Shown: in pieces, positions 21,566 to 45,205 of the stretch
Layout of the letters: each line of letters starts with the position of its first letter
Numbering within the stretch: position 1 is the first letter of the stretch
Source: Caulobacter sp.
GTDB lineage: Bacteria > Pseudomonadota > Alphaproteobacteria > Caulobacterales > Caulobacteraceae
Direction: 5' to 3'
Length of the DNA stretch: 64,000 bases
Assembly: GCA_028291055.1 (NCBI GenBank)
Contig: JAQGIP010000032.1
Span: forward strand, 62,001-126,000
The notes under the pieces: model-generated
What the model saw: the letters and a program-made list of their open reading frames with translations, nothing else
Told to the model about the DNA's origin: nothing
The model's database searches: none
Program-made: the position numbers and the translations under genes

Positions 21566-21924
21566 GGCCCCCTCCCCTGAGGTCTGCCTTGCGTGACAGA
21601 TACCACTGACCTCTGAGCCGAGCATTAAGAGCGCGAAGCGCCTCATCGCCCGGAACCAGATTAAACCAATTTCACCTTAGACATACATTGGGCGAGATAC
21701 CTCGACGATCTCTTCGCGTGATTGAGCACGGTGCGCTCTTACCGCAGACGCCAAGCCCGCACGGCCAACGCACAATTAAGGCATTTAAATCATAAGCTTA
21801 AGGGATGCATGGGTCGAAATTTCCCCCTCGTAGCGTAACTCTTGTGGGAAAGGCCATTTTGGCATAGTGCTGACAAATTGGTTCAAATTGGTCAAATTAG
21901 TAGAACCAATCAGGGGAGAGAAGC
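21566..21924. other. Divergent intergenic region, hybrid kinase / TonB receptor
   Basis: 359 bp without a plausible gene, relatively AT-rich. It must hold promoters for the kinase (minus) and the receptor (plus). Structure is seen only at the receptor side: the inverted repeat 21877-21910 and a degenerate GACC-N5-GGTC-like site at 21881-21893. No RNA gene was recognised. Confidence 0.7.
21877..21910. promoter_or_regulatory. Inverted repeat and degenerate island-type operator before the TonB receptor
   Basis: ATTGGTTC at 21877-21884 and GAACCAAT at 21903-21910 are perfect 8-bp arms 18 bp apart. Inside, GTTC-AAATT-GGTC (21881-21893) is a two-mismatch version of the GACC-N5-GGTC palindrome found in front of other island genes. 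It lies 15-48 bp before the receptor ATG. Confidence 0.5.
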
Positions 21925-24144
21925 ATGAAACATCAAGGTGCAATTGCAGGCGCCGTGCTCGTGGCGTCGTGTTGCATGGCGCCCGCCGCATGGGCCCAGG
22001 CAAGTGGCGGAGGCAACGATGCTCAGCCGGCTCAGGTCGACGAGGTCATCGTCACGGCCCTGAAGCAGGGCGCTTCCGCATTGAATACGTCCGCCAGCGT
22101 AACGGTTGTCAGCTCACAGCAGCTGGAAGCGGCGAATGTCACCTCGGCTCAGCAGCTCAGTGGACTGGTGCCGGGGTATTTTTCGATGCAAGGCACCGCG
22201 GGGACCTCGGCTTCATTTCGCGGCCTGGGCTCCAACGCCTCCGACCCCAGCATTGAATCGTCGGTCGGCACCTTCATCGACGGCATCTACCTTGGCCATG
22301 TGCGCGACTACACCACGCCCCTCTACGACACACAGCAGATCGAGTTCATCGCCGGCACCCAATCCACGCTCCTCGGCAAGAATACGAGCCTGGGCGCGGT
22401 CAGCATCACCAACCGCCGCCCAGGGCATGTGTTCGGCTACGACGTCAGCGCGAACTATACCTCGGCAATCAACGGTTACCGGTTCCAGGGCGCCGTCGAC
22501 CTCCCGCTGGGTGACAGCTTCGCCGCCCGCCTCGCCATGCTCGCGAACCGCGAAGACGGTTTTGTCGAAAACGCCTTCCTAGGGCGACCTGAGCGCCAGA
22601 TTCGTGAATTGTCAGGCCGCATCACGGTGGACGGAGACCTCGGCGGGCGGGGGCGGCTGACGTTCATCTATCAGCACGACAAGCGCGACACGCGGGGCCA
22701 ATTTCTGGAGGTCTTCACTGATCCGAACGGCGCCATCGCGGGCGCCGCAGCCGCCTTCGGCCAGACCACATTCGACACGACGCCCAACGATGTGACCTAC
22801 AGCGGCAGCGACCGCCTCAACCCGGCCGATCCCCCTGTTCCCCTACCCTTTGACAATCAGACCGGTGATCGCGCGACGCTGATCGCCACCTTCGATCTAG
22901 GAGCCGGCACGACCCTGACGTCCCAAACGGCCTATGTCGGGTGGAATTCGCAGCGCGTCACCGACCTGGATTTCACCTCGGTGCACCTTATCGACCTGGT
23001 CGATGGCGAGAAGAACAAGGTTTTCTCGCAGGAACTTCGGCTCAGCTCGCCGCAGGGCGAGAAGTTCTCCTATATCGCTGGTCTGTTCTACTACCGGAAC
23101 GACTACACCCTGAATCGCGGCATCACGTCGGATCTCGGCCTCACCCTCGACAGCCTATTGAAGGTCAAAACGTCCTCCTGGGCTGAATTCGCCTCGGCAC
23201 GCTATGATTTGACAGACCAATTCACGCTCCTGGCCGGCGTTCGGGGAACCCAGGAAGACAAGACGCCCACCTACGAGATTTCCGGGGTCCTGGGCACGCC
23301 GACGCCCCTCACCACCCTTCCAACCGCCAAATCCAATGAGGTGGATGGCAATGTGGGCGTGGAATTCCACCCCCGCAGCGGGACCATGCTCTATGCGACC
23401 TGGGCGCGGGGCAGCAAGAGCGGCGGGTTTCAAGCCAACCCGGATTCTCTCGCCGTGGCCCACTACGACGGCGAAGTGGCCTATACGACCGAAGTCGGCG
23501 CCAAGTTCAACTTTGGGGGCCGTGGGTTTCTGACGTTGGCGGTCTTCGATACGAAGGTCGACGGATTCCAAACCAGTCGCCTGGCGGTCATTCCGCCTTC
23601 GGTGCTGCCGCAAAACATCATCACCAATGCCGACGTCCGCTCTACCGGCGCGGAGGCGAGCGGAGGGTGGAACGTCACCGCCAATTTCAAGCTCACAGGG
23701 GACGTGACCTACGCCGACTCGAAATTCACCAACGACGTCCTCAACGAAGTCGCGCCGGGTGTATTTCAGGTGGAGATCTACAAGGGCATGGTCCTGCCGC
23801 GCGCGCCTTTGTGGGCGGGACAGGTCGGCGCCAGCTACAGGGCGGAGCTCGGAGACAATCTTCAGTTCCGCGCCCAGGGCACGGTCAGATATGCGAGCGT
23901 CGCCGACCTGCAACTTCGCTCAGAGCATCCGCTGTCCCCAAAGGCGGACGCCCACACGACCGTGGATGCGCAATTCTCGATCGGCAGTGAGACCGCCGGC
24001 TGGGAGGTGTCCTTGATTGGCAACAACCTGACTGACGACAGGTACGATACGTTTACATCGGAGTCCTTCCTGGACGGTGACGCCTTCTACGGCACACGCA
24101 GCCGTCCGCGTACGATCGCCCTGCAACTGCGGCTTCGCCACTAG
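21925..24144 (+). CDS. TonB-dependent outer-membrane receptor
   Basis: 739-aa receptor. The signal peptide ends after AWA at residue 24. The plug begins with VDEVIVTALKQG and contains SFRGLGS and a STLLGKNTSLGAVSIT block. The barrel has receptor repeats such as WARGSKSGGF, and the C-terminus ends ALQLRLRH, His instead of the usual Phe/Trp. GGGGAGAG sits before the ATG. It is monocistronic, with a strong hairpin 36 bp after the stop. It probably imports the substrate of the island that follows (inference). It differs from the receptor at 26878-29136, so the two may take different forms of the compound. Confidence 0.94.
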   Translation: MKHQGAIAGAVLVASCCMAPAAWAQASGGGNDAQPAQVDEVIVTALKQGASALNTSASVTVVSSQQLEAANVTSAQQLSGLVPGYFSMQGTAGTSASFRGLGSNASDPSIESSVGTFIDGIYLGHVRDYTTPLYDTQQIEFIAGTQSTLLGKNTSLGAVSITNRRPGHVFGYDVSANYTSAINGYRFQGAVDLPLGDSFAARLAMLANREDGFVENAFLGRPERQIRELSGRITVDGDLGGRGRLTFIYQHDKRDTRGQFLEVFTDPNGAIAGAAAAFGQTTFDTTPNDVTYSGSDRLNPADPPVPLPFDNQTGDRATLIATFDLGAGTTLTSQTAYVGWNSQRVTDLDFTSVHLIDLVDGEKNKVFSQELRLSSPQGEKFSYIAGLFYYRNDYTLNRGITSDLGLTLDSLLKVKTSSWAEFASARYDLTDQFTLLAGVRGTQEDKTPTYEISGVLGTPTPLTTLPTAKSNEVDGNVGVEFHPRSGTMLYATWARGSKSGGFQANPDSLAVAHYDGEVAYTTEVGAKFNFGGRGFLTLAVFDTKVDGFQTSRLAVIPPSVLPQNIITNADVRSTGAEASGGWNVTANFKLTGDVTYADSKFTNDVLNEVAPGVFQVEIYKGMVLPRAPLWAGQVGASYRAELGDNLQFRAQGTVRYASVADLQLRSEHPLSPKADAHTTVDAQFSIGSETAGWEVSLIGNNLTDDRYDTFTSESFLDGDAFYGTRSRPRTIALQLRLRH

Positions 24145-24180
24145 ACGCTCATAGTCGCGTAGCGAAACCCCTCCTCTTGC

Positions 24181-24209
24181 ACATCCCCGGGGCGTGGGCC
24201 CGGGGATGT
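24181..24209. terminator. Strong hairpin between convergent receptor and MFS genes
   Basis: ACATCCCCGGG (24181-24191) pairs perfectly with CCCGGGGATGT (24199-24209) around a 7-base loop. It lies between two convergent stops, so it can serve both strands. No long T-run follows, so termination strength is uncertain. Confidence 0.7.
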
Positions 24210-24274
24210 TGTGGCGGCCCTCCGCTGGCGTTGGATCAGGATCTACTGGCTTCAGCCGAGACGGAGCGCGGCGG

Positions 24275-25639
24275 CTACTCGCCGCCGTCCCCCGCCGGCG
24301 CCGCCTCGGCCAGGCTCCTGGCCGTGCTTCGGAAGCTGGACAGCGTGGAATAGAGCGTCAGGGCCGCCAGGCTGCAGACGACCACCCCAACGATGCCGAA
24401 CGATACGCCCAGCATGTTCTTGTCGTGGAAGACAAAGTCCGTCAGCAGCGCGACCGCGGTCGCCGCCAGACCGCCGGCAATCAGATTGGTGACGGCCACA
24501 TAGATGGCGGTCGCCTGTCCGCGCATGGCGTTGGGCATGATCTCCTGCAGCGCGCCAGGTCCAAGCGGCAGACTGAAGGATCCGAAGAATGAGAAGCAGG
24601 CGAGCCCGGCGATGAGAGCCCCCTGCGTAGGCTGCAGGGCGATCAGCACACTGGCGACAGCGCACATCAGCGCCGCGCCCACGCTGACGATCAGTTTGCC
24701 GTCCGTGCGGCCCCGCTTCGCCAACACGTCGGCAAGCAGGCCGGCGGCCGTGCTCCCCGCGGGACCCAGGATCAGCGACATGAGGCCGAAGGTGGCGCCG
24801 GCCTGGGCGATGCTCCATCCATGCGTCCGCACGAGGAGGGTCGGCAGCCAGGCGGCGCCGGCATGCAAGGCGAAGTTCTGCAGGCAGAAGCCGAGGTTGT
24901 GCCCGACCAATGTGCGCGCGTGGGTCCTGTAATAGCGTCCGACCACGGCGATCGGCACGCCGGCCCTTTCCACCTTGCGGCCGCCATCGAGCCTTTGGGG
25001 CTCGCGGACCAGGAGGGTAAGCGGCGCGACCACCAGGCCCAGGGCGCCGACGGCGATCAGGATCGCCTGCCAGGAATGCAACTGGCCGACCAGTGGAAGA
25101 ACCACCAGCCGGTCGCCGATCGCGCGCCACAGCGCTCCGCCCAGGATGAAGGCGAGGCCGCCGCCCAGGAACATGCCGCCGTAGAAGACGCCCATCGGCG
25201 CGCCGCGCCGGGCCGGCGGGAACAGGTCGGCCAGCAGGGAGACGCCGCACGGCGTGACCGCCGCCTCGCCGGCGCCCACGGCCACCCGGCCCAGGAACAG
25301 CTGCCAGAAGTTGCCGGCCAGGGCGCAGCTGGCCGTCGCCAGGCTCCAGACGGTCACCCCCAGGGCGGCGATGGTCTTGCGCGAGCCGCTGTCCACCCAG
25401 CGCGCCACCGGCAGGCCGAACAGGGCGTTGAAGACGGCGAAGGCGAAGCCGATCAGCAGGCTGATCTCGGTGTCGGTCAGATGCAGGTCGCGTTGGATCG
25501 GCACGACGAACAGGCTGAGGATGTTGCGATCCATGAACGCCAGGACGACGCCCAGCGTCAGGATGATGCAGGCTGTCCACGCCTGCCGCGCGGGCGGATA
25601 GGGCGACACCCGCGAGCCGTCATTCTCCTGTTTGGTCAT
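24275..25639 (-). CDS. MFS transporter (spinster/hexuronate-like)
   Basis: 454-aa inner-membrane permease with about 12 hydrophobic segments. The first segment ends VLAFMDRNILSLFVVPIQRDLHLTDTEISLL, the pattern of spinster-like and ACS-type MFS proteins. The loop after TM2 reads GLPVARWVDSGSRKT. It would carry the TonB-imported compound, or export a product. It lies downstream of the GntR gene but has its own perfect ATTGACC-N5-GGTCAAT palindrome 130-150 bp upstream, so it can be controlled separately. GGGGGAGGG precedes the ATG. Confidence 0.9.
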   Translation of the reverse strand: MTKQENDGSRVSPYPPARQAWTACIILTLGVVLAFMDRNILSLFVVPIQRDLHLTDTEISLLIGFAFAVFNALFGLPVARWVDSGSRKTIAALGVTVWSLATASCALAGNFWQLFLGRVAVGAGEAAVTPCGVSLLADLFPPARRGAPMGVFYGGMFLGGGLAFILGGALWRAIGDRLVVLPLVGQLHSWQAILIAVGALGLVVAPLTLLVREPQRLDGGRKVERAGVPIAVVGRYYRTHARTLVGHNLGFCLQNFALHAGAAWLPTLLVRTHGWSIAQAGATFGLMSLILGPAGSTAAGLLADVLAKRGRTDGKLIVSVGAALMCAVASVLIALQPTQGALIAGLACFSFFGSFSLPLGPGALQEIMPNAMRGQATAIYVAVTNLIAGGLAATAVALLTDFVFHDKNMLGVSFGIVGVVVCSLAALTLYSTLSSFRSTARSLAEAAPAGDGGE

Positions 25640-25770: not shown

Positions 25771-25789
25771 ATTGACCGATTTGGTCAAT
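25771..25789. promoter_or_regulatory. Island operator, 19-bp palindrome before the MFS gene
   Basis: ATTGACC-GATTT-GGTCAAT with perfect 7-bp arms, between the GntR stop and the MFS start. It is the most complete copy of the GACC-N5-GGTC element. Confidence 0.75.
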
Positions 25790-25931: not shown

Positions 25932-26660
25932 TCAGCCTGGAACGGACGTCTCTTCCATCGCCGGTCTGCCCTCGGCCTCGGCCGCCCCTGCCGTGGCGCC
26001 GGTGAGCAGGCGCTGGCGTGTAGCGTCGAGATGCCGCCGCATGGCGGCTTCGGCGGCATCCGGACTATGGGCTTCGATCCCGGCGACGATCGCCTCATGC
26101 TCCTTGAACGAGTGGTAGCCCGGCGGCGGACGGGGCGAAGAGGTGTCAAGGTCGCCCCAGACCACCCGGCGGCGGACAAGATTCAGCAGCTGTTGGATCT
26201 CGTCCAGCAGCACGTTCTCCGTCGCCTTGCCGATCAGGTTGTGAAAGCGCCAGTCGAGCTCGGCATAGCCTTCCCAACTTTCCGCCGCCTGCATCTCGGT
26301 GCAAAGCCGCCTGAGTTCCGCGATCTGTTGTGGCGTGGCGTTCTGCGCGGCCAGCCAGGCCAACTGGGGCTCGATGGTGAACCGGGCTTCCATCGCGACC
26401 CGGGGACTGGTGCGCAGAACGGTCCGGTCGGCGATTTCGGGCGCTGTCTCGCCTGTTGGGGTCAAGAAGGTGCCACTGCCGACCTGGCGCCGGATTCGGC
26501 CCTGGGTCTCCAGGATGCCCAGCGCCTTCCTCAATTCGGGCCGGGTCACTGCAAGCCGCTGCGCCAATTCGCGCTCGGAGGGGAGGCGCCCGGTCTTCGG
26601 CGAAGCCCAAAGGGCGAGGCGATCCTCGAGTTCAGCCAACAGGAGATCATGGGGCAGCAT
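25932..26660 (-). CDS. GntR family regulator, FadR/FCD subfamily
   Basis: 242-aa regulator. The N-terminal winged helix is LLAELEDRLALW..., with GRLPSERELAQRLAVTRPELRKAL and GSGTFLTP as wing. The C-terminal FCD helical domain contains the metal-ligand pattern typical of the family (D/H in ELDWRFHNLIG, then H in FKEHEAIV and RRHLDATRQ). ATG 26660 gives the usual short N-terminal lead; ATG 26708 and beyond are possible. It lies between the TonB receptor and the MFS gene on the same strand. It is one candidate for binding the repeated GACC-N5-GGTC palindromes. FCD proteins usually sense small carboxylates. Confidence 0.9.
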   Translation of the reverse strand: MLPHDLLLAELEDRLALWASPKTGRLPSERELAQRLAVTRPELRKALGILETQGRIRRQVGSGTFLTPTGETAPEIADRTVLRTSPRVAMEARFTIEPQLAWLAAQNATPQQIAELRRLCTEMQAAESWEGYAELDWRFHNLIGKATENVLLDEIQQLLNLVRRRVVWGDLDTSSPRPPPGYHSFKEHEAIVAGIEAHSPDAAEAAMRRHLDATRQRLLTGATAGAAEAEGRPAMEETSVPG

Positions 26661-26877
26661 CTTGCGATCTTGTCCGCGCCGCGCCGTGAAATTGCAAGAG
26701 CCCGGCATCTGGCGGTTCCCGCCCCTCCAGGGCGCGGGCTGTCCGCTTCGGGCGGGTGGCAAATGAAAAGGGGCCGGCGGGGGCAGTCGTGGGAGTCGTC
26801 ATTCCCCCGCCTGGGCCGACCGCATCAGCGGTTGGCCGAGTAGGGCCAGCGGGAGCCTCATGCCCCCGCCGGCGGGA

Positions 26878-29136
26878 CTAAAACTTCATTCCGACGCTGG
26901 CGCCGAACATGCGGGGCGCTTGCGGCGTCGCCTGATCAGGGCCTGTCGACCTGGCGATGGTGGCGTAGACGTGCTGATCGGTCAGGTTGTTGCCCCAGAC
27001 CCTCACGTCCCAGACCTTGGATGGCGCCGTCCAGGTCAAGGAGGCGTTGACCATCGTATAGGCCGGCTGGCGCGCACCGTTCTGCGGATCGAAGAAGTAT
27101 TCCGACCGGTACTGGGCGACGGCGAACGCGGAGAAATCGCCCATCGTTGTCGGCCACTTGTACTGCGCGCTGAAGTTGACGGTCGTCTTGGAGGCATAGA
27201 TCAGCTGCTTGCCCGAAAGGTCGGTGGGGACGAGCCGGTAGCCCCCCATGCCGCCGCTGGGATTGACAGTACCGATCGGCACCGGGACGTATCCGGGTCC
27301 GCCCGGAAAATCCTTGTAGGTGGGATCGAGCAGGGTTCCGGTGAGTTGGAGCGTCAGGCCCGTGACGGGAAGCGCCGTGATCTCGAAGTCCACGCCCTTG
27401 ATCTCGGCCTTCGCGGCGTTGGCCAGGGTGTAGAAGCCATTCACGAACTGCTGCACCTGCAGGTTCTTGTAGTTGTAGTAGTAGGCGGCCAGGTTGACCC
27501 GCAGGCGGCCATCCAGCCAATCGGTCTTCACGCCGGCTTCCACGGCGTCGATCGTTTCCGGCTCCACGGGAGCTGAGTTCAGGGTGACGGTATTGAACAC
27601 GCCGGCCTTGAAGCCGCGGCTATAGGACAGATAGCCCATCGCCCTCGGTGCGAAGTTGTGATCGACCGACAGCTTCCAGGTCGGTTGGGAGAAGCGGGCC
27701 GTGCGGGCCGACGGCAGGGTGCTGCCGGGCTGGGTGGTGCGGTTGAGGATCACCGGCACAGCCGTTTCCAGAATCTGGGTGCCCTGGGTTTCCCGGTAGT
27801 CCGCGGTATCGCGCAGCCCGACGGTCAGCCGCGTATCGTCCGTCACCCTATAGGTGGCCTGGCCGAAGGCCGAGAATGAGGTGGTGGTCTGGTAGGCGAA
27901 GATGTCGATCGGGGCGAGGGTGCTGTACCCGTAGCCCAGGAAGGTGATCGGATTGTCGGTCGCCTTGTCGCGATAGTAGAAGGCGCCCACGATCCATTTC
28001 AGCCGCGAATCGGACGTGGACGGAGACAGCAGCTGCACCTCCTGGCTGAAGGTTTCGGTCCAGGGATTGGTGTCCAGAGCCTTGTAGTCGAGGGGCGTGG
28101 CGTCGCTATCGACCGGTCCATGCACTTCGGCCTTGTGATAGGCCGTTATGGATACCGCCTCCACGCCGCCAAAGTCGTGCCATAGCTTCAGGCTGGCGCC
28201 GTACTGGCGGCTGTCGGAGAAGGCCGGCCGATCCAGATCGACATTGTAGAACCCGACATAGTGGCTGAGGTAGGGGCCCGGATTGCCGCCCGGCCCCGGA
28301 GCGCGCCAGGGCAGCGCGCCCTCCGGGATATTGCGGGCCGTACCCACATCCTGGTGGTCCTTGCTGTAGTCGACGATGAAGGTCGCCTTGGTGGTGTCGC
28401 TGGGCTGCCACAGCCATTTGGAGCGGATGGCGAGGTTCCGATTGGTGAAGACGTCCGCGCCCGTCGCCAGGTTCGTCCCCCAGCCATCCTGCTGATCGTG
28501 GTAGAAGACGGCCAGATCCGCCGCCAGGGTGTCGGTAATCCCCGTGGTGGCGTAGAAGTTGGCCTCCACCGTGTTGTAGTTGCCGTAGCCGAGACGGACC
28601 TCTCCATGCCGATCGTGGCTGGGGTCCTTGGTGGTGATCTGAATGACGCCGCCGGTGGCGTTGCGGCCGAACAGGGTGCCCTGCGGCCCCTTGTCCACCT
28701 CGATGGCGGCGATGTTGTTGAACGAGAAGATGCTCGCGTATTGCGAGCCGATGTAGACGTTGTCCACGTAGGTCGACACGCCGGCTTCCGCGCCGGGACT
28801 GGTGATGTTGGAGCCCACGCCGCGCAGGAACGGCGTGCCCGCACCAGGCCCCACACGCCCGAAGGTCAGCCCGGGGGTGACCACGGCCAGGCTGTCCACA
28901 TTGTTCACGCCCTGACGCGCCAGCGTCTCGCCGCTGAAGGCGGTAATCGACACGGGCACGCTCTGGGCCGATTCACTGCGCTTTTGCGCGGTGACGATCA
29001 CCTCTTCGACGGTGTTCGTCCCCGGTTGAGCGTCGGCCCGGGCGCCGGGTTGAGACTGAGCGGCGGCCGGTAGCGACGCCGCGGCGGCCCAGCACGCGAC
29101 CGCACTCCCCAGCAACAGGCTTGTCTTGGACATCAT
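26878..29136 (-). CDS. TonB-dependent outer-membrane receptor
   Basis: 752-aa receptor. The signal peptide ends near residue 26 (LPAAA). The TonB-box/plug start is VEEVIVTAQKRSESAQ, followed by PFLRGVGSN and VDKGPQGTLFGRNATGGVIQI, a plug block common to sphingomonad and Caulobacter receptors of catabolic islands. The barrel ends in the classic MFGASVGMKF with terminal Phe. GGGGAG precedes the ATG. It is divergent from the HbpS-GMC operon across 243 bp that contain three GACC-N5-GGTC palindromes, so both sides are probably induced together. GntR and MFS genes follow on the same strand. Confidence 0.95.
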   Translation of the reverse strand: MMSKTSLLLGSAVACWAAAASLPAAAQSQPGARADAQPGTNTVEEVIVTAQKRSESAQSVPVSITAFSGETLARQGVNNVDSLAVVTPGLTFGRVGPGAGTPFLRGVGSNITSPGAEAGVSTYVDNVYIGSQYASIFSFNNIAAIEVDKGPQGTLFGRNATGGVIQITTKDPSHDRHGEVRLGYGNYNTVEANFYATTGITDTLAADLAVFYHDQQDGWGTNLATGADVFTNRNLAIRSKWLWQPSDTTKATFIVDYSKDHQDVGTARNIPEGALPWRAPGPGGNPGPYLSHYVGFYNVDLDRPAFSDSRQYGASLKLWHDFGGVEAVSITAYHKAEVHGPVDSDATPLDYKALDTNPWTETFSQEVQLLSPSTSDSRLKWIVGAFYYRDKATDNPITFLGYGYSTLAPIDIFAYQTTTSFSAFGQATYRVTDDTRLTVGLRDTADYRETQGTQILETAVPVILNRTTQPGSTLPSARTARFSQPTWKLSVDHNFAPRAMGYLSYSRGFKAGVFNTVTLNSAPVEPETIDAVEAGVKTDWLDGRLRVNLAAYYYNYKNLQVQQFVNGFYTLANAAKAEIKGVDFEITALPVTGLTLQLTGTLLDPTYKDFPGGPGYVPVPIGTVNPSGGMGGYRLVPTDLSGKQLIYASKTTVNFSAQYKWPTTMGDFSAFAVAQYRSEYFFDPQNGARQPAYTMVNASLTWTAPSKVWDVRVWGNNLTDQHVYATIARSTGPDQATPQAPRMFGASVGMKF

Positions 29137-29190
29137 CGTTTCTCCCCTTTTATTTTTTTGGGGCGATGCGCCGCGCCCCCGAAATATCTA

Positions 29191-29203
29191 GACCAAATTG
29201 GTC
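29191..29203. promoter_or_regulatory. Island operator 1 in receptor/HbpS divergent region
   Basis: GACC-AAATT-GGTC; in full GACCAAATTGGTC is a perfect palindrome with 6-bp arms around one A. It lies 55 bp upstream of the receptor ATG, and its centre is 35 bp from the next copy. Confidence 0.75.
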
Positions 29204-29225
29204 AATCTAAGTCCATATTTATTTT

Positions 29226-29238
29226 GACCGATCCGGTC
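29226..29238. promoter_or_regulatory. Island operator 2 in receptor/HbpS divergent region
   Basis: GACC-GATCC-GGTC, a second copy 22 bp after the first. The pair could support cooperative binding at the receptor promoter. Confidence 0.7.
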
Positions 29239-29333
29239 GATTTATGTGAGGCGCTCCACGGACATATAGGCGGCTGATCGGTTCCGATAGTGCTCAATGG
29301 GGTGTTGCGCGTCCCGCCATTCCCACATATTCT

Positions 29334-29346
29334 GACCGTAATGGTC
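29334..29346. promoter_or_regulatory. Island operator 3, before the HbpS-GMC operon
   Basis: GACC-GTAAT-GGTC, 34 bp before the HbpS-like ATG. It is flanked by CT on the left and AAT on the right, so only the right flank keeps the wider ATTGACC/GGTCAAT form. Confidence 0.7.
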
Positions 29347-29379
29347 AATATTTATGCGGCTGAGATCCCCGGAGAAACG

Positions 29380-29850
29380 ATGCTACAGATTCAGCGACTT
29401 TCGGCCGACGACGCCGCTGTCGTCATCGGCGGCGCCCGTGAACAGGCGCAGCGCATCGGCGTGCCGATGTGCATCGCGGTGGTTGACGAGTCCGGCACGC
29501 TGATCGCGTTCGAACGCATGGACGGCGGCAAGGTCCACTCGGTTCAGGTCGCCATCGACAAGGCCTTCACCGCCGCCTCGGCGAGAAAGCCGACCCATGA
29601 ATACAATGCCGCCTGCGTTCCCGGGAATCTGGTCTTCGGGATCCACACGGCCCTGGGCGGCAGGCTTTGCGTCGTGGGCGGCGGCTATCCGATCATCGTG
29701 GACGGCGTCACCGTCGGCGGTGTCGGCCTGTCCTCCGGATCGCCGCAACAGGACATGTCCTGCGCCGAGGCGGGGGTCAGCAGCATCGTCCGCCACCTGG
29801 GCGGCCAGGCGGCACAACCACTCGCAGGATCGGAGCAGGACCTTGGGTGA
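29380..29850 (+). CDS. HbpS/GlcG-like protein (DUF336 family)
   Basis: 156-aa protein of the GlcG/HbpS family. It begins LSADDAAVVIGGAREQAQRIGVPMCIAVVDESG and has the conserved C-terminal GGYPI, GVTVGGVGLSSG and Q-D-x-x-C-A-x-A-G block. Family members bind haem or small molecules and often accompany oxidoreductases; the catalytic role is not settled. ATG 29380 follows GGAG at a 5-base spacing. It starts the plus-strand operon and overlaps the GMC gene by 8 nt, so a partnership with that flavoenzyme is likely. Confidence 0.85.
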   Translation: MLQIQRLSADDAAVVIGGAREQAQRIGVPMCIAVVDESGTLIAFERMDGGKVHSVQVAIDKAFTAASARKPTHEYNAACVPGNLVFGIHTALGGRLCVVGGGYPIIVDGVTVGGVGLSSGSPQQDMSCAEAGVSSIVRHLGGQAAQPLAGSEQDLG

Positions 29851-31579
29851 ACGGTTCGACTACATCGTAGTCGGCGGTGGCGCGGCGGGCTGCGTCCTGG
29901 CCAACCGGCTGTCAGCCGAGTCGCGCAACAGCGTCCTGCTCATCGAAGCGGGCATGGACACGCCGCCCGGGCAGACGCCCGCCGACATCCTTGATCCGTA
30001 TCCGTCGTCCTACACAAACCCTCGCTACCGCTGGCCGCTCTCGGGCCACGCCCTGACGGAAGAGACCTCTCCGCCGATTCCCCTGCTCCATGCCAAGGTC
30101 ATGGGCGGCGGTTCGTCGATCATGGGCATGATCATGCTCAGGGGGACGGCTGAAGACTATGACGGCTGGGCCTCCGCCGGCGCGCGGGGCTGGAGCTGGC
30201 GCGAGGTGCTGCCCTATTTCCGGCGCCTGGAGACCGACCTCGACTTCGGTGGCGCGCTTCACGGAAACGACGGCCCGACCGAAATCCGCCGCCACCGACC
30301 CGACGACTGGCCGCCACTCGCCAAGGCGGCGCGCGCCTATGCCGCCCGGATGGGCCTTCCCTTCGTCGCGGATATGAACGCCGATTTCTCAGATGGCTAC
30401 GGCGCCCTTCCGATTGCCGGAACCACGCAACGGCGCGCCTCAAGCGCCCTCTCCTATCTGACCGCCGACGTCAGGGCCCGCGCCAACCTGCGCATCCTGC
30501 CGGACGCCCTGGCGGAGGCCCTGGTCTTCGAGGGCGCGAAGGTGGCGGGCGTTCGCGTCCGCGCGGGAGGCGAGACGCTCACATTCCGCGCCAGGGAGAC
30601 GATCCTGGCCATGGGGGCCCTGCTGACACCCGCCTTCCTTCTCGCGCAGGGCGTTGGCGAAGCAGAGCAACTCCTTGCCGCCGGCGTGCCGGTGCGTCGC
30701 GCCCTCCCCGGCGTCGGCCGCAATCTGCAAAACCATGCTTCGCTGCTGATCCTGGCTCACCTGCGCGCGGCCGGCGTGCAGCGAAATCCCCAGCGCAATC
30801 ACAACAACACCATGTTCCGCTACACCTCCGGCATAGGTGACTGCGGCAGCGCCGATATGGCCCTGGCGCTGGGAAGCCGCGCCAGTTGGCATGAAGTGGC
30901 CCGGAGGATCGCCCATTTCAGCCCCCTCATCCTGGCGCCGGCCTCCCGCGGACGGGTGAGCCTGCGCGCCGGCGGCGAGGCCCGGGGCAATCCGCTCATC
31001 GAATACAACCTGCTCGGCGACCCCCGCGACGAAGCACGGCTGATCGATGCGATGGGCCGTATCGCCGACCTGCTCGCGGCGCCGGAAGTGTCCCGGCTGA
31101 TCGGGACGCCCGTCGCGGCGAGCCGCCTTGCCAATGCGGCGCGGTTCGAGCGGAAAAGTCGCGCCAACATCCTGCGCACCAAGGCTATTGCGCTGGCATT
31201 TGACCTCTTTCCGGCTCTCGGCGATGGGGCCGTGGGTTCCATGGGTGAGCCCGCTGGCTCGCTCCGGGACCTGCTCTGCGACCCCGCCCGGATGTCGGCG
31301 TATCTGCGCAAGAACATCACCCCCGTCGCCCACCATTCCGGGACCTGCAGGATGGGAGGCCAGGAAGACCCCCTCGCGGTCGTCGGCCCGGAAGGGCGCG
31401 TCCACGGAATCGGTGGTCTCAGGGTCGCCGACGCATCCGTCATGCCGACGGTGCCCCGAGGCAACACCAACCTGCCCACCCTGATGGTGGCGGAGAAGAT
31501 CTCGGACGCCATCCTGGGCCGGAGCGCCCCGGCCGCGGACCTGGGTTCCGGGCTTGCGCACGGCCGGCTTCCGGCCTAG
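29843..31579 (+). CDS. GMC family FAD-dependent oxidoreductase
   Basis: 578-aa glucose-methanol-choline flavoenzyme. The FAD motif is DYIVVGGGAAGCVLANRLS. GMC signature 1 region (KVMGGGSSIMGMIMLRG) and signature 2 region (GALLTPAFLLAQGVG) are present. The C-terminal catalytic His block is VAHHSGTCRMG followed by VADASVMPTVPRGNTN. It oxidises an alcohol to an aldehyde or ketone. I place the start at TTG 29843, with GGAGCAGGA upstream and 8-nt overlap with the HbpS-like gene; no ATG fits before the Rossmann motif. The substrate is probably the imported island compound or its first product (inference). Confidence 0.92.
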   Translation: MGERFDYIVVGGGAAGCVLANRLSAESRNSVLLIEAGMDTPPGQTPADILDPYPSSYTNPRYRWPLSGHALTEETSPPIPLLHAKVMGGGSSIMGMIMLRGTAEDYDGWASAGARGWSWREVLPYFRRLETDLDFGGALHGNDGPTEIRRHRPDDWPPLAKAARAYAARMGLPFVADMNADFSDGYGALPIAGTTQRRASSALSYLTADVRARANLRILPDALAEALVFEGAKVAGVRVRAGGETLTFRARETILAMGALLTPAFLLAQGVGEAEQLLAAGVPVRRALPGVGRNLQNHASLLILAHLRAAGVQRNPQRNHNNTMFRYTSGIGDCGSADMALALGSRASWHEVARRIAHFSPLILAPASRGRVSLRAGGEARGNPLIEYNLLGDPRDEARLIDAMGRIADLLAAPEVSRLIGTPVAASRLANAARFERKSRANILRTKAIALAFDLFPALGDGAVGSMGEPAGSLRDLLCDPARMSAYLRKNITPVAHHSGTCRMGGQEDPLAVVGPEGRVHGIGGLRVADASVMPTVPRGNTNLPTLMVAEKISDAILGRSAPAADLGSGLAHGRLPA

Positions 31580-31580
31580 C

Positions 31581-31607
31581 GGTCCAAATGGTCTTATTGG
31601 TTATAAT
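31581..31607 (+). repeat. Three 9-bp direct repeats between GMC and alcohol dehydrogenase genes
   Basis: GGTCCAAAT, GGTCTTATT and GGTTATAAT lie head to tail in the 48-bp gap. Each begins with the GGT(C) half-site found in the island palindromes. It may be a degenerate internal regulatory site; chance cannot be excluded. Confidence 0.35.
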
Positions 31608-31627
31608 TGATCCGCTCGGAGAGACAT

Positions 31628-32752
31628 ATGTCGGTCGCCCTATCGGTCGTCGCGATACCGCCCACCATGAGAGCCTGGGTCCTCAACGACCCCGGCGATC
31701 TGGAACTCGTCGAAAAGCCCATGCCGGAGCCGGGATCGGCGGAGGTCCTCATCCGGATCGATGCGGTCGCCGTCTGCGCCACCGACCTTGAGGTCATCAA
31801 GGATGGCCCGCCGGCGCGGATCAACGGCGGCCTGCCGTTCAACCAGGGCTTCACGCCCGGGCATGAGTATATGGGAACCATCGTCGGCCTCGGGCCCGAC
31901 GTCGACGAATATCGCCTGGGCGAGCGGGTCAGCGTCGAGATTCATGCCGGATGCGGGCGGTGCAAACGCTGCCGCGAAGGCATGTATACCGCCTGCCTGA
32001 ACTACGGCGCCAACTACGAGGGCAACGACAAGGGTCATCGGGCCAACGGTTTCACGACGGACGGCGGCTTCGCCCAATACGCCGTCAACCACATCAACAC
32101 CCTGGTGCGGGTGCCGGAGTCCATGACCGACGCGGAGGCGGCGCTGGTGGTGACGGCCGGCACCACCATGTACGGCCTGACGGAACTTGGCGGCTTGGTG
32201 GCGGGTGAAAGCGTCGTGGTGCTGGGCCCAGGACCGATCGGCCTGCTGGGCGTCGCGATCGCCAAATCGCTGGGCGCCGCCTGCGTCATCCTCTCGGGCA
32301 CCAGGGCCGATCGCCTCAAGATCGGCTCCGAACTCGGCGCGGACCACACGATCGACGCGACCCGGACCGATCCCGTCGAGGCCGTCCTCAGCCTGACCGG
32401 CGGTCTCGGCGCCGACTATGTCCTCGACTGCGCCGGCACCGAGCAATCGGTGAACCAGGCGATCAAGATGACCAACCGCGGCGGCAAGATCTGTCTGGCG
32501 GCCTTCCCGCACGAGATGGTCAGCATCGATCTCGCCCACGCCGTGCGCAACAACATCTACCTCTACGGCATCCGCGGTGAAGGCCGCAGCGCCACCCACC
32601 GCGCCATGGCGCTGATGTCGGCCGGCCGCTTCGACGCGACCCTGATCCACACCCACACCTTCGGCCTGAGCGACCTTCCGGAGGCGCTGCGGCACGCCCG
32701 CGAACGCATCGACGGAGCGATCAAGGTGATCGTCCGGCCGCAAGACAACTGA
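31628..32752 (+). CDS. Zinc-dependent medium-chain alcohol dehydrogenase
   Basis: 374-aa MDR-family dehydrogenase. Catalytic zinc ligands are C50 and H79-E80 (GHEYMG), and the structural zinc lobe has C109, C112, C115 and C123. The Rossmann motif is VVLGPGPIGLLGVAIAKSLGA. The overall form resembles sorbitol/threonine dehydrogenases. ATG 31628 follows GGAGAG; an in-frame start at 31607 is less good. Third gene of the HbpS-GMC operon, 48 bp after GMC. It could oxidise a second hydroxyl or work in sequence with the GMC enzyme. Confidence 0.92.
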   Translation: MSVALSVVAIPPTMRAWVLNDPGDLELVEKPMPEPGSAEVLIRIDAVAVCATDLEVIKDGPPARINGGLPFNQGFTPGHEYMGTIVGLGPDVDEYRLGERVSVEIHAGCGRCKRCREGMYTACLNYGANYEGNDKGHRANGFTTDGGFAQYAVNHINTLVRVPESMTDAEAALVVTAGTTMYGLTELGGLVAGESVVVLGPGPIGLLGVAIAKSLGAACVILSGTRADRLKIGSELGADHTIDATRTDPVEAVLSLTGGLGADYVLDCAGTEQSVNQAIKMTNRGGKICLAAFPHEMVSIDLAHAVRNNIYLYGIRGEGRSATHRAMALMSAGRFDATLIHTHTFGLSDLPEALRHARERIDGAIKVIVRPQDN

Positions 32753-32766
32753 GCAGGGCCAGGAAG

Positions 32767-33228
32767 ATGGATCACAGGATCGTCGAGATCGCGCCTCCGG
32801 GCCCCGCGGAAGATCCCCTGCGGGACTGGCCGGAGCACCTCCGAAACGAGTTCGAAGCCAACCAGTTCGGGCCCGGCGTCGGCAATGTCCTGGTCTCGGA
32901 GGACGACAGGGTTCGCGTCTGGCACCTGTCGCTTCCACCCGGCGGCTGGCTGACCTTCCACCGGCATGTCCTGGACTATTTCTGGACCACGCCGACGGCC
33001 GGAGTGGCGCGGGGCTACTACGAGGACGGCCGGATCGTCGACGTCCATCATTACCCCGGAGAGACCCGCCACTTCCGGCACGGCCTCGGCGAATATTTCG
33101 TGCACGCCATCGAGAATGTCGGCGACACCGAGTTGATCTTCGTCACCGTCGAATTCCTGAACGGCGACAATCCTCCCATCGACGTGCCGGATGCCATGAG
33201 GCTCCAGCCTCCGGCCGGTGCGCGCTAG
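32767..33228 (+). CDS. Cupin-like protein
   Basis: 153-aa small beta-barrel-type protein. VRVWHLSLPPGGWLTFHRHVLDYFW and ETRHFRHGLGEYFVHAIENVGDTELIFVTVEF look like the two cupin motifs with several His residues that could bind a metal. It lies 14 bp after the alcohol dehydrogenase and 24 bp before the DapA-like gene. Possible roles are isomerase, lyase or dioxygenase step on an oxidised intermediate. I recognise the fold pattern only. Confidence 0.65.
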   Translation: MDHRIVEIAPPGPAEDPLRDWPEHLRNEFEANQFGPGVGNVLVSEDDRVRVWHLSLPPGGWLTFHRHVLDYFWTTPTAGVARGYYEDGRIVDVHHYPGETRHFRHGLGEYFVHAIENVGDTELIFVTVEFLNGDNPPIDVPDAMRLQPPAGAR

Positions 33229-33252
33229 TTCCGATACGAGAAGGATATTGCG

Positions 33253-34209
33253 ATGAGTGAACGCCTGCGCGGCGTGGTGGCCGCGATCACGACGCCGATC
33301 CTGGAGACGGGCCAGCCGGACCTTGAACGCTTCCTGGTCAGGGCGGACTTCCTGCTGAAGTCCGGCTGCGACGGCCTCAATGTCCTTGGGACCACCGGTG
33401 AAGCGACCTCCCTGTCGGTGCGTCAACGCCTGACGGTCATGAACGCGATCGATGGCTCGGCCCTGCCGGTCGACCGGATGCTTGTCGGCACGGGCGCGGC
33501 GGCCGTCGAAGACGCCGTTGCGCTGACCATGGCGGCCGCCGACATCGGCTTTTCCGGAGCCCTGTTGCTGCCGCCCTTCTACTACAAGCCGGTCTCGGAC
33601 GCGGGCATCCTGCGGTTCGTGGACGCCCTGGTCGAGGCCACCGCCGCCCGGCCGATCCGCCTCTATCTGTACAATTTCCCGGCCCTGTCCGGGATCGCCT
33701 ACACACCGGCCCTGGTCTCCTCGCTGGTCCGCAATTTCGGCGACCGGATCGCCGGCCTGAAGGACTCCTCGGGAGACCTGGCCTATGCGCATGAGATTGC
33801 CGCCCTCTCGCCGTCCCTGGACGTCTTCCCGTCCAACGAGGCGACCCTGCTGATGGCCCGGTCCGGCGGGCCCTTCGCCGGCTGCATCTCGGCCACCGCC
33901 AACCTCAATTCCGCCGACTGCGCCCTCGCCTATCACCAGGGCGACGAGGCCGCGCTGGCGCGGTCCGTCGCCGTCCGCGCCCTGTTCGACGGCCTGCCCC
34001 TCGTGCCGGCCGTCAAGGCCATGGTCGCGCGGCTGACGGGCGATGCCGGGCATGCGCGCACCCTGCCCCCCTTCGCGCCCCTCGACGACGAACAGTCGGC
34101 CCTCCTGGCTCGGCGCTATGCGGGCTTGGAAGCTGTCGATGCAGAGAACGCTTTCCGGCGAAGTGGAAACCGGTTCGCCGCCGAAAAGCGCGACAAAACA
34201 AAAAGCTAG
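33253..34209 (+). CDS. Dihydrodipicolinate synthase (DapA) family lyase/aldolase
   Basis: 318-aa class I aldolase-type TIM barrel. The Schiff-base Lys is K170 in AGLKDSSGD, the catalytic Tyr is Y140 in YLYNFPALSG, and the substrate loop is GTTGEATSLS (about 47-56). Pathway DapA proteins make lysine precursors, but a catabolic operon location argues for a retro-aldol or dehydratase role on a 2-oxo acid, as in KDG aldolase or hydratase-aldolase subfamilies. It ends the plus-strand operon, with a hairpin just after it. Confidence 0.88.
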   Translation: MSERLRGVVAAITTPILETGQPDLERFLVRADFLLKSGCDGLNVLGTTGEATSLSVRQRLTVMNAIDGSALPVDRMLVGTGAAAVEDAVALTMAAADIGFSGALLLPPFYYKPVSDAGILRFVDALVEATAARPIRLYLYNFPALSGIAYTPALVSSLVRNFGDRIAGLKDSSGDLAYAHEIAALSPSLDVFPSNEATLLMARSGGPFAGCISATANLNSADCALAYHQGDEAALARSVAVRALFDGLPLVPAVKAMVARLTGDAGHARTLPPFAPLDDEQSALLARRYAGLEAVDAENAFRRSGNRFAAEKRDKTKS

Positions 34210-34213
34210 AGCG

Positions 34214-38869: not shown

Positions 38870-39281
38870 GTCCGTTTCCATCCTGGTCTGTGTCGGCCGC
38901 GTCCGCGGTCAGGGTTCGGGAAAGCCGCGTCACGGCGGCTCTTAGCGCCTCGATGGCGGCATCCACCCCGCTCCGCCGCGCCTCCAGCACCGACATCTGC
39001 GCTCTCAGGCGCGGCAGGGCCTTCATCATCTGCGCGGTCTCGCCCTCCCGGTCATAGACATCGAGCAGGTCGCCGATCGTGCGCAGATCCAGCCCCACGC
39101 GCCTGCCCTTGAGCACCAGCCTCAGCCGTACCCGGTCTCGCCGGGAATAGATCCGCGTCTGCTGCTGGCGGAGCGGTGAGAGCAGGCCCTGCTCCTCATA
39201 GAAGCGCAGCGCCCGCGTCGTTACGCCAAACTCCCGGCTTATCTGGGTGATCTTGGACGGGACGGGGCGAAGCGGATGCAA
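38862..39281 (-). CDS. MerR family transcriptional regulator
   Basis: 139-aa regulator. The N-terminal DNA-binding domain is ITQISREFGVTTRALRFYEEQGLLSP with QQQTRIYSRRDRVRLRLVLKGRRVG; the rest is a long dimerisation coiled coil. No cysteine metal-site cluster is seen, so it is closer to the redox/organic-ligand or acyl-CoA-responsive type. The start is TTG 39281 with AGGAGA upstream. It overlaps the P450 gene. A 20-bp perfect palindrome sits 34 bp upstream of the start and is the likely operator. Confidence 0.88.
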   Translation of the reverse strand: MHPLRPVPSKITQISREFGVTTRALRFYEEQGLLSPLRQQQTRIYSRRDRVRLRLVLKGRRVGLDLRTIGDLLDVYDREGETAQMMKALPRLRAQMSVLEARRSGVDAAIEALRAAVTRLSRTLTADAADTDQDGNGHD

Positions 39282-39314
39282 GAACGCGTCTCCTGGCAAT
39301 TCGCGGAGGACAAA

Positions 39315-39334
39315 AACATAACTCGAGTTATGTT
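39315..39334. promoter_or_regulatory. 20-bp perfect palindrome upstream of the MerR-P450 operon
   Basis: AACATAACTCGAGTTATGTT is perfectly symmetric, 34 bp before the MerR start. MerR proteins bind such sites between -35 and -10, so it is the likely autoregulatory operator. Confidence 0.75.
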
Positions 39335-39484: not shown

Positions 39485-40171
39485 ATGTCGGTCGCACAGG
39501 GGCGAGATCGAGTGGCTACGAGGCAATCCGAGGCGCGGACGCCGACCCCCCGCAAGAAGCAGCAGCGGACTGTCGACACGCGCCTGAAGATCATCAAGGC
39601 AGCGATGTCCGAGTTCGCCCTGCTCGGCTTCGAAGGTGCGACCACCCGCGGCATCGCCGAGGCCGCCGAGGCGCCGCACTCGCTGGTGCTCTATCACTTC
39701 AAGAGTAAGGAAGAGCTCTGGTACGAGACCGTGAGGGAGGCGGTTCGCTGGTATGCCCGCCGGGGCCTCGAAGGCGTCACACCGGCCGACGATCGCGATC
39801 CCATCGGCCAGCTGAAGGCGATTTTCTCGCATTATATCCGCTTCAGCGCCGAGTATCCGGACTTCTTCCGCATGCTGACCCATGAGAACAAGCTGACGTC
39901 GGACCGGCTCTCCTGGCATGTGAAGACCCACCTCGCGCCCATCGTCGCGCGCACCACCGGCCTGATCCGCAAGGCCCAGGACGCGGGCGCCTTCGTCGAA
40001 GGCGACCCGACAACCCTGCTCTACCTATTCCTGGGCTCGGCCACGAGCCCCTACCGCTCGGCGCGGGAAATCGAACTGGTGACCGGCAAGACCCCCTTCA
40101 TGCCCAAGGCCATCGAGCGCCATATCGCCCTTTGCGAGAGCCTGTTCTTCCGCACGCCGACGGCCTCCTAG
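39485..40171 (+). CDS. TetR family transcriptional regulator (CecR-like)
   Basis: About 228-aa TetR regulator. The helix-turn-helix is TRLKIIKAAMSEFALLGFEGATTRGIAEAAEA, ending LVLYHFKSKEELWYET. The C-terminal domain (FSAEYPDFFRMLTHENKLTSDRLSW) resembles the TetR at 19075. The start is uncertain: ATG 39455, ATG 39485 and GTG 39512 are all in frame with weak ribosome sites. It is divergent from the MerR operon, and the alpha/beta hydrolase with a GACC-N5-GGTC operator follows it. It is an alternative candidate reader of that operator. Confidence 0.88.
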   Translation: MSVAQGRDRVATRQSEARTPTPRKKQQRTVDTRLKIIKAAMSEFALLGFEGATTRGIAEAAEAPHSLVLYHFKSKEELWYETVREAVRWYARRGLEGVTPADDRDPIGQLKAIFSHYIRFSAEYPDFFRMLTHENKLTSDRLSWHVKTHLAPIVARTTGLIRKAQDAGAFVEGDPTTLLYLFLGSATSPYRSAREIELVTGKTPFMPKAIERHIALCESLFFRTPTAS

Positions 40172-40265
40172 CGCCCCGTCCGTTCGTCCCTCCCACATGG
40201 GAACGCCTGGCGGGACCGCACGCGAAGTCCGCTTGCCAGAGGCTCTGTAGCCGTCCATAAGATTA

Positions 40266-40278
40266 GACCATATTGGTC
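40266..40278. promoter_or_regulatory. Island operator before the alpha/beta hydrolase
   Basis: GACC-ATATT-GGTC in the context TTAGACCATATTGGTCAATA, 28 bp before the hydrolase ATG. Confidence 0.75.
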
Positions 40279-40306
40279 AATATAGATCTTGGTGGGAGCG
40301 GAAACG

Positions 40307-42337: not shown

Positions 42338-42432
42338 TCCTCGAACCGGATCCCGCATCCTTCTCGGGCTATTTCGCCCGGGCGTTTCAGGCCTGGGACT
42401 TGCTGGCATCGACTCTTGGAAGGGCCGACCCG

Positions 42433-43032
42433 ATGACCGAACCCGCGCACCTCGTCACCTACCTCGAATTCGGCCCGTCGTTCGCCGCGGCGGCGGCCCG
42501 GGGACTTCCCGCGTGGGCGGCCTCCGTCCGCTCGGAAACCGGGGTCGACGAGGTGATGCTTCTGGGCGAGATCAATCGGCCCGAACGGTTCGCCCTCGTC
42601 GAAACCTGGAGCAGCCTGGCGCAACTCAACACCCGCCAAACCGCCGGCGCCCATCCGGACCTGGCGGCCGCTCCGGGCCAGTGCGCGCCGGCTGATGAAC
42701 GCGTCGGCGAACCCTTCTGCGTCGGGCCCGCCAGACCGGCCGGGCCCGGCGCGCTGCACGTTCTCATTCACATCGACGTCGTGCCGTTCAATCTGGCCGC
42801 GGTGGGAGACTGGCTGACAGATCAGGCCGAGGCCGCTCGCCCGGCGGCCTTGAGATACGATGTCTGGCGTCAGGTCGACCGCCCCAATCATTTCACCGCG
42901 GTGCAGGTCTGGGCGGATCGCGCCGCCTACGCCCACCACGTCGAGAACGCGATCACCCACGCGTTTCGGTCAAAGCTCCTGGCGCTCAAGGGCGCTCTCT
43001 ATGACGAGCGCCTCTATCGCCGCATGACCTGA
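42433..43032 (+). CDS. Two-domain dimeric alpha/beta-barrel (ABM-like) protein
   Basis: 199-aa protein formed by two similar halves of about 95 residues. Each has a strand-helix pattern ending in an aromatic-rich segment (FALVETWSSLAQLNTRQTA, and FTAVQVWADRAAYAHHVEN). The pattern is that of antibiotic-biosynthesis-monooxygenase-like proteins. ATG 42433 follows GGAAGGG; 95 bp separate it from the amidohydrolase. Such proteins act as cofactor-free oxygenases, haem-degrading enzymes or cyclases. No specific activity can be assigned. Confidence 0.72.
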   Translation: MTEPAHLVTYLEFGPSFAAAAARGLPAWAASVRSETGVDEVMLLGEINRPERFALVETWSSLAQLNTRQTAGAHPDLAAAPGQCAPADERVGEPFCVGPARPAGPGALHVLIHIDVVPFNLAAVGDWLTDQAEAARPAALRYDVWRQVDRPNHFTAVQVWADRAAYAHHVENAITHAFRSKLLALKGALYDERLYRRMT

Positions 43033-44007: not shown

Positions 44008-44174
44008 TGGGAACACCGAATTTTCGAGAATGCCGCGCGTCGGCGACGACGACTGGATCGATCTTGCCCCGGGTTTTCACACCCTTCCCTCGCGGTAGGC
44101 CAGATGGAAATAGTCCGATCCGGGCTAAATATATCCCTGCGCCGGGTAGTCAGGGCCGGAATCCACCCGCCAGC

Positions 44175-45116
44175 TCAGCCACGACATAGCGCCTTGCTGA
44201 GGGCTTCGGTGTAGCGCTGGTGAAAGTCCCGGACGACTTCGGTCTTCGCGCCGACGAGATCGAACACATGAAATGCTCCCTCAACGATCGTGAGGGTGCA
44301 GGGAACGCCGGCTTCGGTCAGGCGCCGCGCGTAAGCGATGCTTTCGTCATGGAACAGGTCACAATCGCCAACACCGATCCAGGTTGGCGGCAGGCCTCTC
44401 AGGTCCTCTCGACGAGCGGGCGAGGCATAGGCAGGAACGTCCGGGCCACCCGGCTCGCGGCCAAGATAGGAGCGCCAGCCAAACCGGTTGCTCTCGGTAC
44501 TCCAAAGGCGAAGGCGCCGTTCGTCGATATCGGTGCGGCAGGCCGTCCTGTCATCCAGCATCGGATAGATGAGCAGTTGAAAGGCGACGCGAAACTCGGC
44601 GCGATCATGGGCCATCAACACCAAACCGGCGGCCAGCCCGGCGCCGGCGCTATTTCCGGCAACGGCTATGCGGTCGGGCGCGATATTCAGCCTGCCCGCC
44701 TCAGAATGCAGCCAGGCCAACGCCGCATAGCCGTCCGCCAGGGGCGCGGGATAGGGATGTTCCGGACTTAGGCGGTAGTCGACGGCGGCGATGACCAGGC
44801 CGACCTTCAGGCACAGCGCGATGTGGCGCGCCTCGTCCTGCTCAGGGGTCCCGATGATAAAGCCCCCGCCGTGCATCCAGAGTATCGCCGGCAGCGCGGG
44901 CTGAGCCGCCGCCGGGATATAGAGCTTGACCCGCAATGGAGATCCGTCCGGGCCCGGTATGAACTCATCGCGGATGGCCAGGCCCTCTGCCGACGGAGGT
45001 GCGGACAGCCCCCGGCGCCGCTGCAAACCCTTGGCCAATCGGCTCAGTCGCGGCCCGAACGAGAAACGCGGGATGAGCCGGGCGGCACGGCGAAGTTCGG
45101 GGTGAAAGTGTGACAT
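44175..45116 (-). CDS. Alpha/beta hydrolase, hormone-sensitive-lipase (HSL) family
   Basis: 313-aa esterase. The HSL oxyanion motif is WMHGGGFIIG, the nucleophile elbow AGNSAGAGLA, the Asp in GVGDCDLFHDE and the His near the end in GAFHVFD. ATG 45116 has AGGAG seven bases upstream; ATG 45122 is too close to it. It is divergent from the SDR gene, with one GACC-N5-GGTC operator between them. It is the second island esterase beside the type B enzyme and probably removes a short acyl group. Confidence 0.9.
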   Translation of the reverse strand: MSHFHPELRRAARLIPRFSFGPRLSRLAKGLQRRRGLSAPPSAEGLAIRDEFIPGPDGSPLRVKLYIPAAAQPALPAILWMHGGGFIIGTPEQDEARHIALCLKVGLVIAAVDYRLSPEHPYPAPLADGYAALAWLHSEAGRLNIAPDRIAVAGNSAGAGLAAGLVLMAHDRAEFRVAFQLLIYPMLDDRTACRTDIDERRLRLWSTESNRFGWRSYLGREPGGPDVPAYASPARREDLRGLPPTWIGVGDCDLFHDESIAYARRLTEAGVPCTLTIVEGAFHVFDLVGAKTEVVRDFHQRYTEALSKALCRG

Positions 45117-45192
45117 CGGCATGCTCCTGGGATGGTCGAGCTTCTCCGGTCACGCTTACGCGCCCCGCGGTAAATCTCTTCTTCTCCATATT

Positions 45193-45205
45193 GACCGATT
45201 TGGTC
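45193..45205. promoter_or_regulatory. Island operator between HSL esterase and SDR genes
   Basis: GACC-GATTT-GGTC in the context ATTGACCGATTTGGTCTAT, the same inner sequence as the copy at 25771. It lies 77 bp before the esterase start and 130 bp before the SDR start. Confidence 0.75.

Follow-up and report, generated by a model that had tools for sequence, protein, structure and literature searches.

RutR, the TetR-family regulator of pyrimidine utilization in E. coli, recognizes the consensus TTGACCANNTGGTCAA. Its binding site is a palindrome of about 16 bp (PMC10891134). PheR of Sphingobium sp. SHPJ-2 is a repressor, and losing it increases both TonB-dependent receptors and catabolic genes for aromatics (PMC13273656). 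Here we analyse a 64,000-nt stretch of Caulobacter sp. DNA (assembly GCA_028291055.1, contig JAQGIP010000032.1, positions 62,001 to 126,000; hereafter the window, whose own coordinates are used throughout), in which a palindrome with the core GACC-N5-GGTC stands before uptake and catabolic genes of one island. This palindrome is very probably the operator of a homodimer of the TetR-family protein encoded at 39485-40171 (TetR 39485), which would repress these genes, and its half-sites resemble those of RutR.

Results

A scan combined with gene prediction places exact copies of GACCNNNNNGGTC (GACC-N5-GGTC) at 25774, 29191, 29226, 29334, 40266 and 45193, all six between predicted genes, as a preliminary description of the window had reported. 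Its range of 28-150 bp before a start codon also holds: the distances are 33-134 bp, apart from the hydrolase gene, where the core lies 28 bp from an in-frame ATG at 40307, or 10 bp from a TTG at 40289 if that is the start. The putative operators are as follows, with the distance to the start codon counted from the 13-bp core.

25771..25789, ATTGACCGATTTGGTCAAT, 5' of the MFS transporter gene (24275-25639, minus strand), 134 bp
29188..29206, CTAGACCAAATTGGTCAAT, 5' of a TonB-dependent receptor gene (26878-29136, minus strand), 54 bp
29223..29241, TTTGACCGATCCGGTCGAT, second site 5' of the same receptor gene (26878-29136), 89 bp
29331..29349, TCTGACCGTAATGGTCAAT, head of the HbpS-GMC-alcohol dehydrogenase (ADH)-cupin-DapA operon, 33 bp to the HbpS start
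40263..40281, TTAGACCATATTGGTCAAT, between the TetR gene (39485-40171) and an alpha/beta hydrolase gene, 10 or 28 bp
45190..45208, ATTGACCGATTTGGTCTAT, in the divergent gap between HSL esterase and SDR genes, 70 bp (HSL esterase) and 129 bp (SDR)

The six palindromes between genes are genuine and far in excess of chance, and the true motif is longer than GACC-N5-GGTC. The whole window holds 11 copies of the bare core against a mean of 2.19 over 100 shuffles, none of which reached 11; the further five (46015, 46192, 50676, 59937 and 60379) lie inside predicted open reading frames (ORFs), so that the earlier statement that no equivalent intergenic copy occurs outside 21.8-45.3 kb stands within the window. 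The genome scan proposed in the preliminary description gave one answer for the core and another for the longer arms. We rejected the bare core as a regulon marker, as its 376 copies in the 4.99-Mb genome, a density of about 4.8 in 64 kb, are near background (the reversed control pattern has 225), and longer arms are required. ATTGACC-N5-GGTCAAT with up to two mismatches has 11 sites in the genome, six of them within a 19.4-kb stretch of the window and the other five in predicted ORFs; with up to three mismatches there are 113, against 18 for the reversed control, and this looser version is mostly background. The refined operator WTWGACC-RNWNY-GGTCWAW (WTWGACCRNWNYGGTCWAW), with at most one mismatch, occurs six times in the genome, always in the island, while its reversed control has no site and 100 shuffles of the window gave 0.00. 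Since the refined pattern was drawn from 22 sites, six of which come from the window, its count there and in the genome is a description rather than an independent test, to which the simpler ATTGACC-N5-GGTCAAT scan comes closer.

A degenerate copy had also been proposed at 21881. The best alignment to ATTGACC-N5-GGTCAAT in that region has five mismatches (at 21869), with a single half-site, TTGGTCAA, at 21888; we reject this site, and the TonB receptor at 21925 is excluded from the regulon along with it. The gap concerned (21646-21925), which follows a hybrid histidine kinase gene (19793-21646), carries a different element, with TTGGTTC at 21878 and GAACCAA at 21903 flanking direct repeats of CAAATTGGT.

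Close orthologs of TetR 39485 were found in three of the 198 other Caulobacteraceae genomes searched (G070, G082 and G041) and in two Phenylobacterium loci from metagenome-assembled genomes (MAGs; L075 and L076), at 61-70% identity. All five loci carry refined-pattern sites (three in G070, two in G082, two in G041, four in L075 and two in L076). Together with the window they yielded 26 candidate sites with up to three mismatches, 22 of which entered the motif count; the four left out (G082 159986, G041 44769, G041 49673 and L076 8198) lie in predicted ORFs, and a refined site found later, L076:698, is not part of the count. The resulting symmetric consensus, TAT-WTWGACC-RNWNY-GGTCWAW-ATA, describes a site of 19-25 bp with arms TWGACCR and YGGTCWA flanking a 3-bp centre, and 18 of the 22 sites match the refined pattern with at most one mismatch. 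Several conserved features had played no part in selection: R at the spacer edge (43 of 44 half-sites), an A/T centre (20 of 22 sites) and the outer T-A-T flanks. By comparison, a symmetric motif at promoter-side positions in six loci is what a TetR-family protein with palindromic operators at its target promoters would have.

The genes that the operator would control in the window are these.

24275..25639, minus strand: MFS transporter (PF07690; 66-71% identity in four relatives)
26878..29136, minus strand: TonB-dependent receptor (PF00593, PF07715; 72% ortholog in G082)
29380-29850, plus strand: HbpS-like protein, in the proposed target operon 29380..34209
about 29864-31579, plus strand: GMC oxidoreductase, same operon
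31607-32752, plus strand: Zn alcohol dehydrogenase, same operon
32767-33228, plus strand: cupin, same operon
33253-34209, plus strand: DapA-family protein, same operon
40289 or 40307-41461, plus strand: alpha/beta hydrolase (Pfam), proposed target
41522-42337, plus strand: amidohydrolase_2 (Pfam), proposed target
about 42334-43032, plus strand: ABM-domain protein (Pfam), proposed target
44175-45122, minus strand: HSL-type esterase, proposed divergent target
45335-46060, plus strand: SDR, proposed divergent target

Comparison with related islands, which the preliminary description had suggested, finds the operator in five of five, mainly before the same kinds of gene. The MFS gene is preceded by a site in all five loci that include it, a GMC or HbpS gene in five of five, a TonB receptor in four of the five loci that have one (the exception being G041), and the alpha/beta hydrolase in five of six; the receptors of G070 and L075 are just 28-29% identical to that of the window. 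A single site is common to divergent MFS and GMC or HbpS genes in G070, L075 and G082, and a FAD-binding monooxygenase gene of G070 (at 16683) also has one. The order TetR-operator-hydrolase recurs in four of six loci (window, G070, L075 and L076), and in G041 the hydrolase gene lies about 11 kb from the TetR gene with its operator still kept. The HbpS-GMC-ADH-cupin-DapA block is partly conserved in the five relatives, and in four of the six loci (G070, G082, L075 and L076) the TetR gene lies 3' of the GMC-ADH-cupin-DapA part on the same strand. The claim that the palindrome ties distant operons into one regulon is well supported by these comparisons, because within its own genome the motif stays inside the island, and in five related loci it turns up again at promoters of the same gene kinds.

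The relatives' islands add a monooxygenase of the aromatic-ring hydroxylase type, an FAA hydrolase and a malate synthase G. Malate synthase G-like genes (L064:781-2871 and L066:2502-4826), not among the scanned window proteins, adjoin the TetR gene in two of these islands, G070 and G082, where they stand before it, hinting at glyoxylate as a pathway product. Among solved structures the GMC enzyme resembles 5-(hydroxymethyl)furfural oxidase at 7.4e-97 (6f97) and a chloramphenicol-inactivating oxidoreductase at 6.7e-63 (8b7s), and the nearest solved relative of the alpha/beta hydrolase is 2,6-dihydroxy-pseudo-oxynicotine hydrolase (3.6e-18). From this enzyme set we would guess that the substrate is an aryl alcohol or a phenolic ester. 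In 385 genomes of the class, a scan for the cupin turned up one relative from a different family, at 49% (G346).

Discussion

Three regulators enter the argument first.

39485..40171, plus strand: TetR-family regulator, proposed reader (PF00440, PF17938, above gathering cut-off)
25932..26762, minus strand: FCD GntR regulator (PF07729, PF00392), downstream of the TonB receptor on the same strand and upstream of the MFS operator
19075-19773: second TetR (PF00440, PF17938; 33% identical to TetR 39485)

The preliminary description had named the GntR protein and two TetR proteins (37006 and 39485) as possible readers of the palindrome. Comparison separates them: TetR 39485 is favoured because its orthologs occur in all five other operator-bearing loci, while orthologs of the GntR protein were found in two and a relative of TetR 37006 in none of the stretches retrieved from the five, which disfavours both. 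TetR 39485 has an N-terminal TetR_N domain (PF00440, 41.4 bits against a cut-off of 24) and a C-terminal domain matched by both PF17938 (30.4 against 26.2) and PF17932 (27.3 against 26.4).

Several points weigh against TetR 39485 as the reader. Its own gene has no operator upstream in the window, and the ortholog loci form one clade and are partly MAGs, so that six loci are not six independent tests. The G082 hydrolase homolog lacks a site within three mismatches, and the GMC sites of G041 and G070 depart from the refined pattern by three and two mismatches. Two more distant TetR proteins with similar recognition helices, L079 (38% identical, PHSLVIYHF) and L122 (PHGLVIYHY), have no good TTGACC palindrome nearby. 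The GntR protein has close orthologs in two of the five relatives and so may act as a co-regulator. Finally, the operator was assigned to TetR 39485 by comparison.

We can nevertheless offer a proposal for how the island would work. A TetR 39485 homodimer would bind the 19-25-bp site at the promoters of the TonB receptor, the MFS transporter, the HbpS-GMC-ADH-cupin-DapA operon, the alpha/beta-hydrolase genes and the HSL/SDR pair, and without substrate would keep these uptake and catabolic genes off. As in other members of the family, the substrate or an intermediate may enter the C-terminal pocket and release the protein from DNA. In G070, G082, L075 and L076, four of the six loci, TetR would in addition hold down its own expression, because there its gene follows the GMC block on the same strand.

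Among the alternatives, it is improbable that the FCD GntR protein reads the palindrome, leaving TetR 39485 as a passenger or as the reader of some other operator. The GntR gene does adjoin two operator-bearing genes in the window, and it has orthologs in the G070 and G082 islands, the only ones found at E 1e-30 among the 198 other genomes of the family. None of three operator-bearing genomes, those of G041, L075 and L076, yielded an ortholog, although the MAGs may be incomplete. In G041 there are five weaker GntR relatives, at 27-43% across a portion of the protein (the best at 33%, E 3.7e-21), and a 28% FCD relative shares a contig with the MFS gene, some 7 kb beyond it; the L076 genome has one relative (36% over 109 residues) and the L075 genome none at E 0.001. 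Moreover, FCD operators usually have inward TGGT...ACCA arms, the opposite order to the island palindrome. GntR 25932 is possibly a member of the regulon rather than its reader.

Less probable still is that TetR 39485 reads the sites as an activator, or that the sites serve several TetR paralogs. Comparing the flanks for a gene-side -10 element gave no asymmetry (means of 3.64 and 3.55 matches to TATAAT); we rejected such an element as evidence of repression, and because there is no lean to the gene side, the position of the sites is no proof of repression. TetR-family proteins are mostly repressors, however, and the one close paralog in the genome at E 1e-20, TetR 19075, has its own promoter marked by another palindrome.

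That second TetR was not named in the preliminary description. In the gap 18995-19074, which separates its gene from a divergent block of Pyr_redox, glyoxalase/dioxygenase-superfamily and FAA hydrolase genes, two copies of ACTTTCCGNNCGGAAAGT (ACTTTCCG-N2-CGGAAAGT) lie at 19013-19030 and 19044-19061, and they are the two best of the four genome matches with up to two mismatches. Because TetR 19075 has these palindromes of its own, and similar ones stand beside its relatives in G070 and G120, the two TetR proteins appear to read different operators.

Least probable is that TetR 37006-37608 or the neighbouring MerR (38862-39299) is the reader: both lie inside the island, but neither has a tblastn match at 1e-8 in the stretches retrieved from the five relatives (these, not whole genomes, were searched), and the MerR gene has a 20-bp palindrome of its own upstream. 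That palindrome, AACATAACTCGAGTTATGTT at 39315-39334, is perfect and stands directly upstream of the gene, possibly as the MerR operator. The P450 of the window likewise gave no match at 1e-8 in those stretches.

Beyond the close orthologs the operator is sparse. Of 199 family genomes, 55 have a refined-pattern match with at most one mismatch; the 195 genomes other than those with the close TetR (G000, G070, G082 and G041) hold 73 sites, or 0.37 per genome. Two or more matches occur in 16 of these 195, and G052 is the one genome in which a pair falls inside 20 kb, beside phaR and thiolase genes. The four matches of G188, a genus-mate genome, are on four contigs; the three inspected (L107, L110 and L113) are TTTGAYCGGTTCGRTCAAA-like repeats between convergent gene ends and are probably terminators. 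Two TetR relatives from genus-mates (L028:2182 and L030:2179, 29-30% identical) have a common palindrome directly upstream, GGTTCACC-N4-GGTGAATC.

TetR 39485 belongs to a larger set of catabolic-cluster TetR proteins. A Reyranella member (L080) is 34% identical and has the same HSLVLYHF recognition-helix residues; TTGACCATATGGTCAA lies 15-54 bp before its possible start codons, and TTGACCATATGGACAG overlaps its stop codon. An exact N2-7 match arose once in 20000 in a 600-bp Markov control, a figure that is in truth less favourable, several loci and spacings having been inspected. TetR homologs from Bradyrhizobium and Paraburkholderia plasmids (38-41% identity) have genes for P450, extradiol dioxygenase, amidohydrolase or FAA hydrolase as neighbours. 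In Bradyrhizobium CB82 (L123), TTGACCGTATGGACAA stands between divergent genes for an extradiol dioxygenase and an amidohydrolase; its N4 spacing, unlike the N5 of the window operators, is shared by the Reyranella site and the E. coli rutA-rutR gap. Paraburkholderia L122 has no such site at one mismatch or fewer, and Bradyrhizobium L126 an N2 match only. A tentative and rather doubtful reading is that a clade of HSLV(L/I)YHF TetR proteins reads TTGACC half-sites at two spacings, N5 in Caulobacteraceae and N4 in Reyranella and, with a more distant protein, in RutR, the spacing having changed while half-site reading was kept. If true, these proteins would make a small natural series on how TetR dimers set operator length, beside the sister TetRs of the 19075 type that read ACTTTCCG-N2-CGGAAAGT.

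Among described regulators, RutR comes closest to TetR 39485, being both its best NCBIfam match (TIGR03613, 5.2e-14) and its best match of solved structure (4x1e, 1.8e-10). The E. coli rutA-rutR gap contains TGGACTAAACGGTCAA, with the half-sites of the island operator to within two mismatches and a 4-bp spacing; half-sites TTGACC/GGTCAA agree, whereas the spacing is N5 in the six window sites and N4 for RutR. The differences are larger in the protein and its surroundings: TetR 39485 scores 52.6 bits where the TIGR03613 cut-off is 368, its recognition helix is PHSLVLYHF against SKTNLLYYF in RutR, and, where RutR adjoins or controls the rutA-G pyrimidine genes, the 20 island proteins scanned include none that is rut-like. 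By these comparisons the island system is a predicted local TetR catabolic regulon with RutR-like half-sites, not RutR. PheR resembles it in the kinds of gene controlled and differs in belonging to the IclR family, with the operator core GCAACG and phenanthrene as its compound (PMC13273656).

A literature search on the motif strings, RutR and TetR found no paper with this operator, and in the 20 of 150 matches listed just ATTGACC occurred, with none of the five longer motif strings. The kind of system is ordinary and leaves the understanding of such systems in general unchanged; the particular gene set under this operator was not found described. The comparison yields a regulator and an operator that can be tested as a pair, and it delimits a set of genes, from the TonB receptor to enzymes acting on rings or esters, for a catabolic pathway of Caulobacteraceae. 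The operators show which of these genes form one group, and a reporter built on TetR could help in the search for the inducer.

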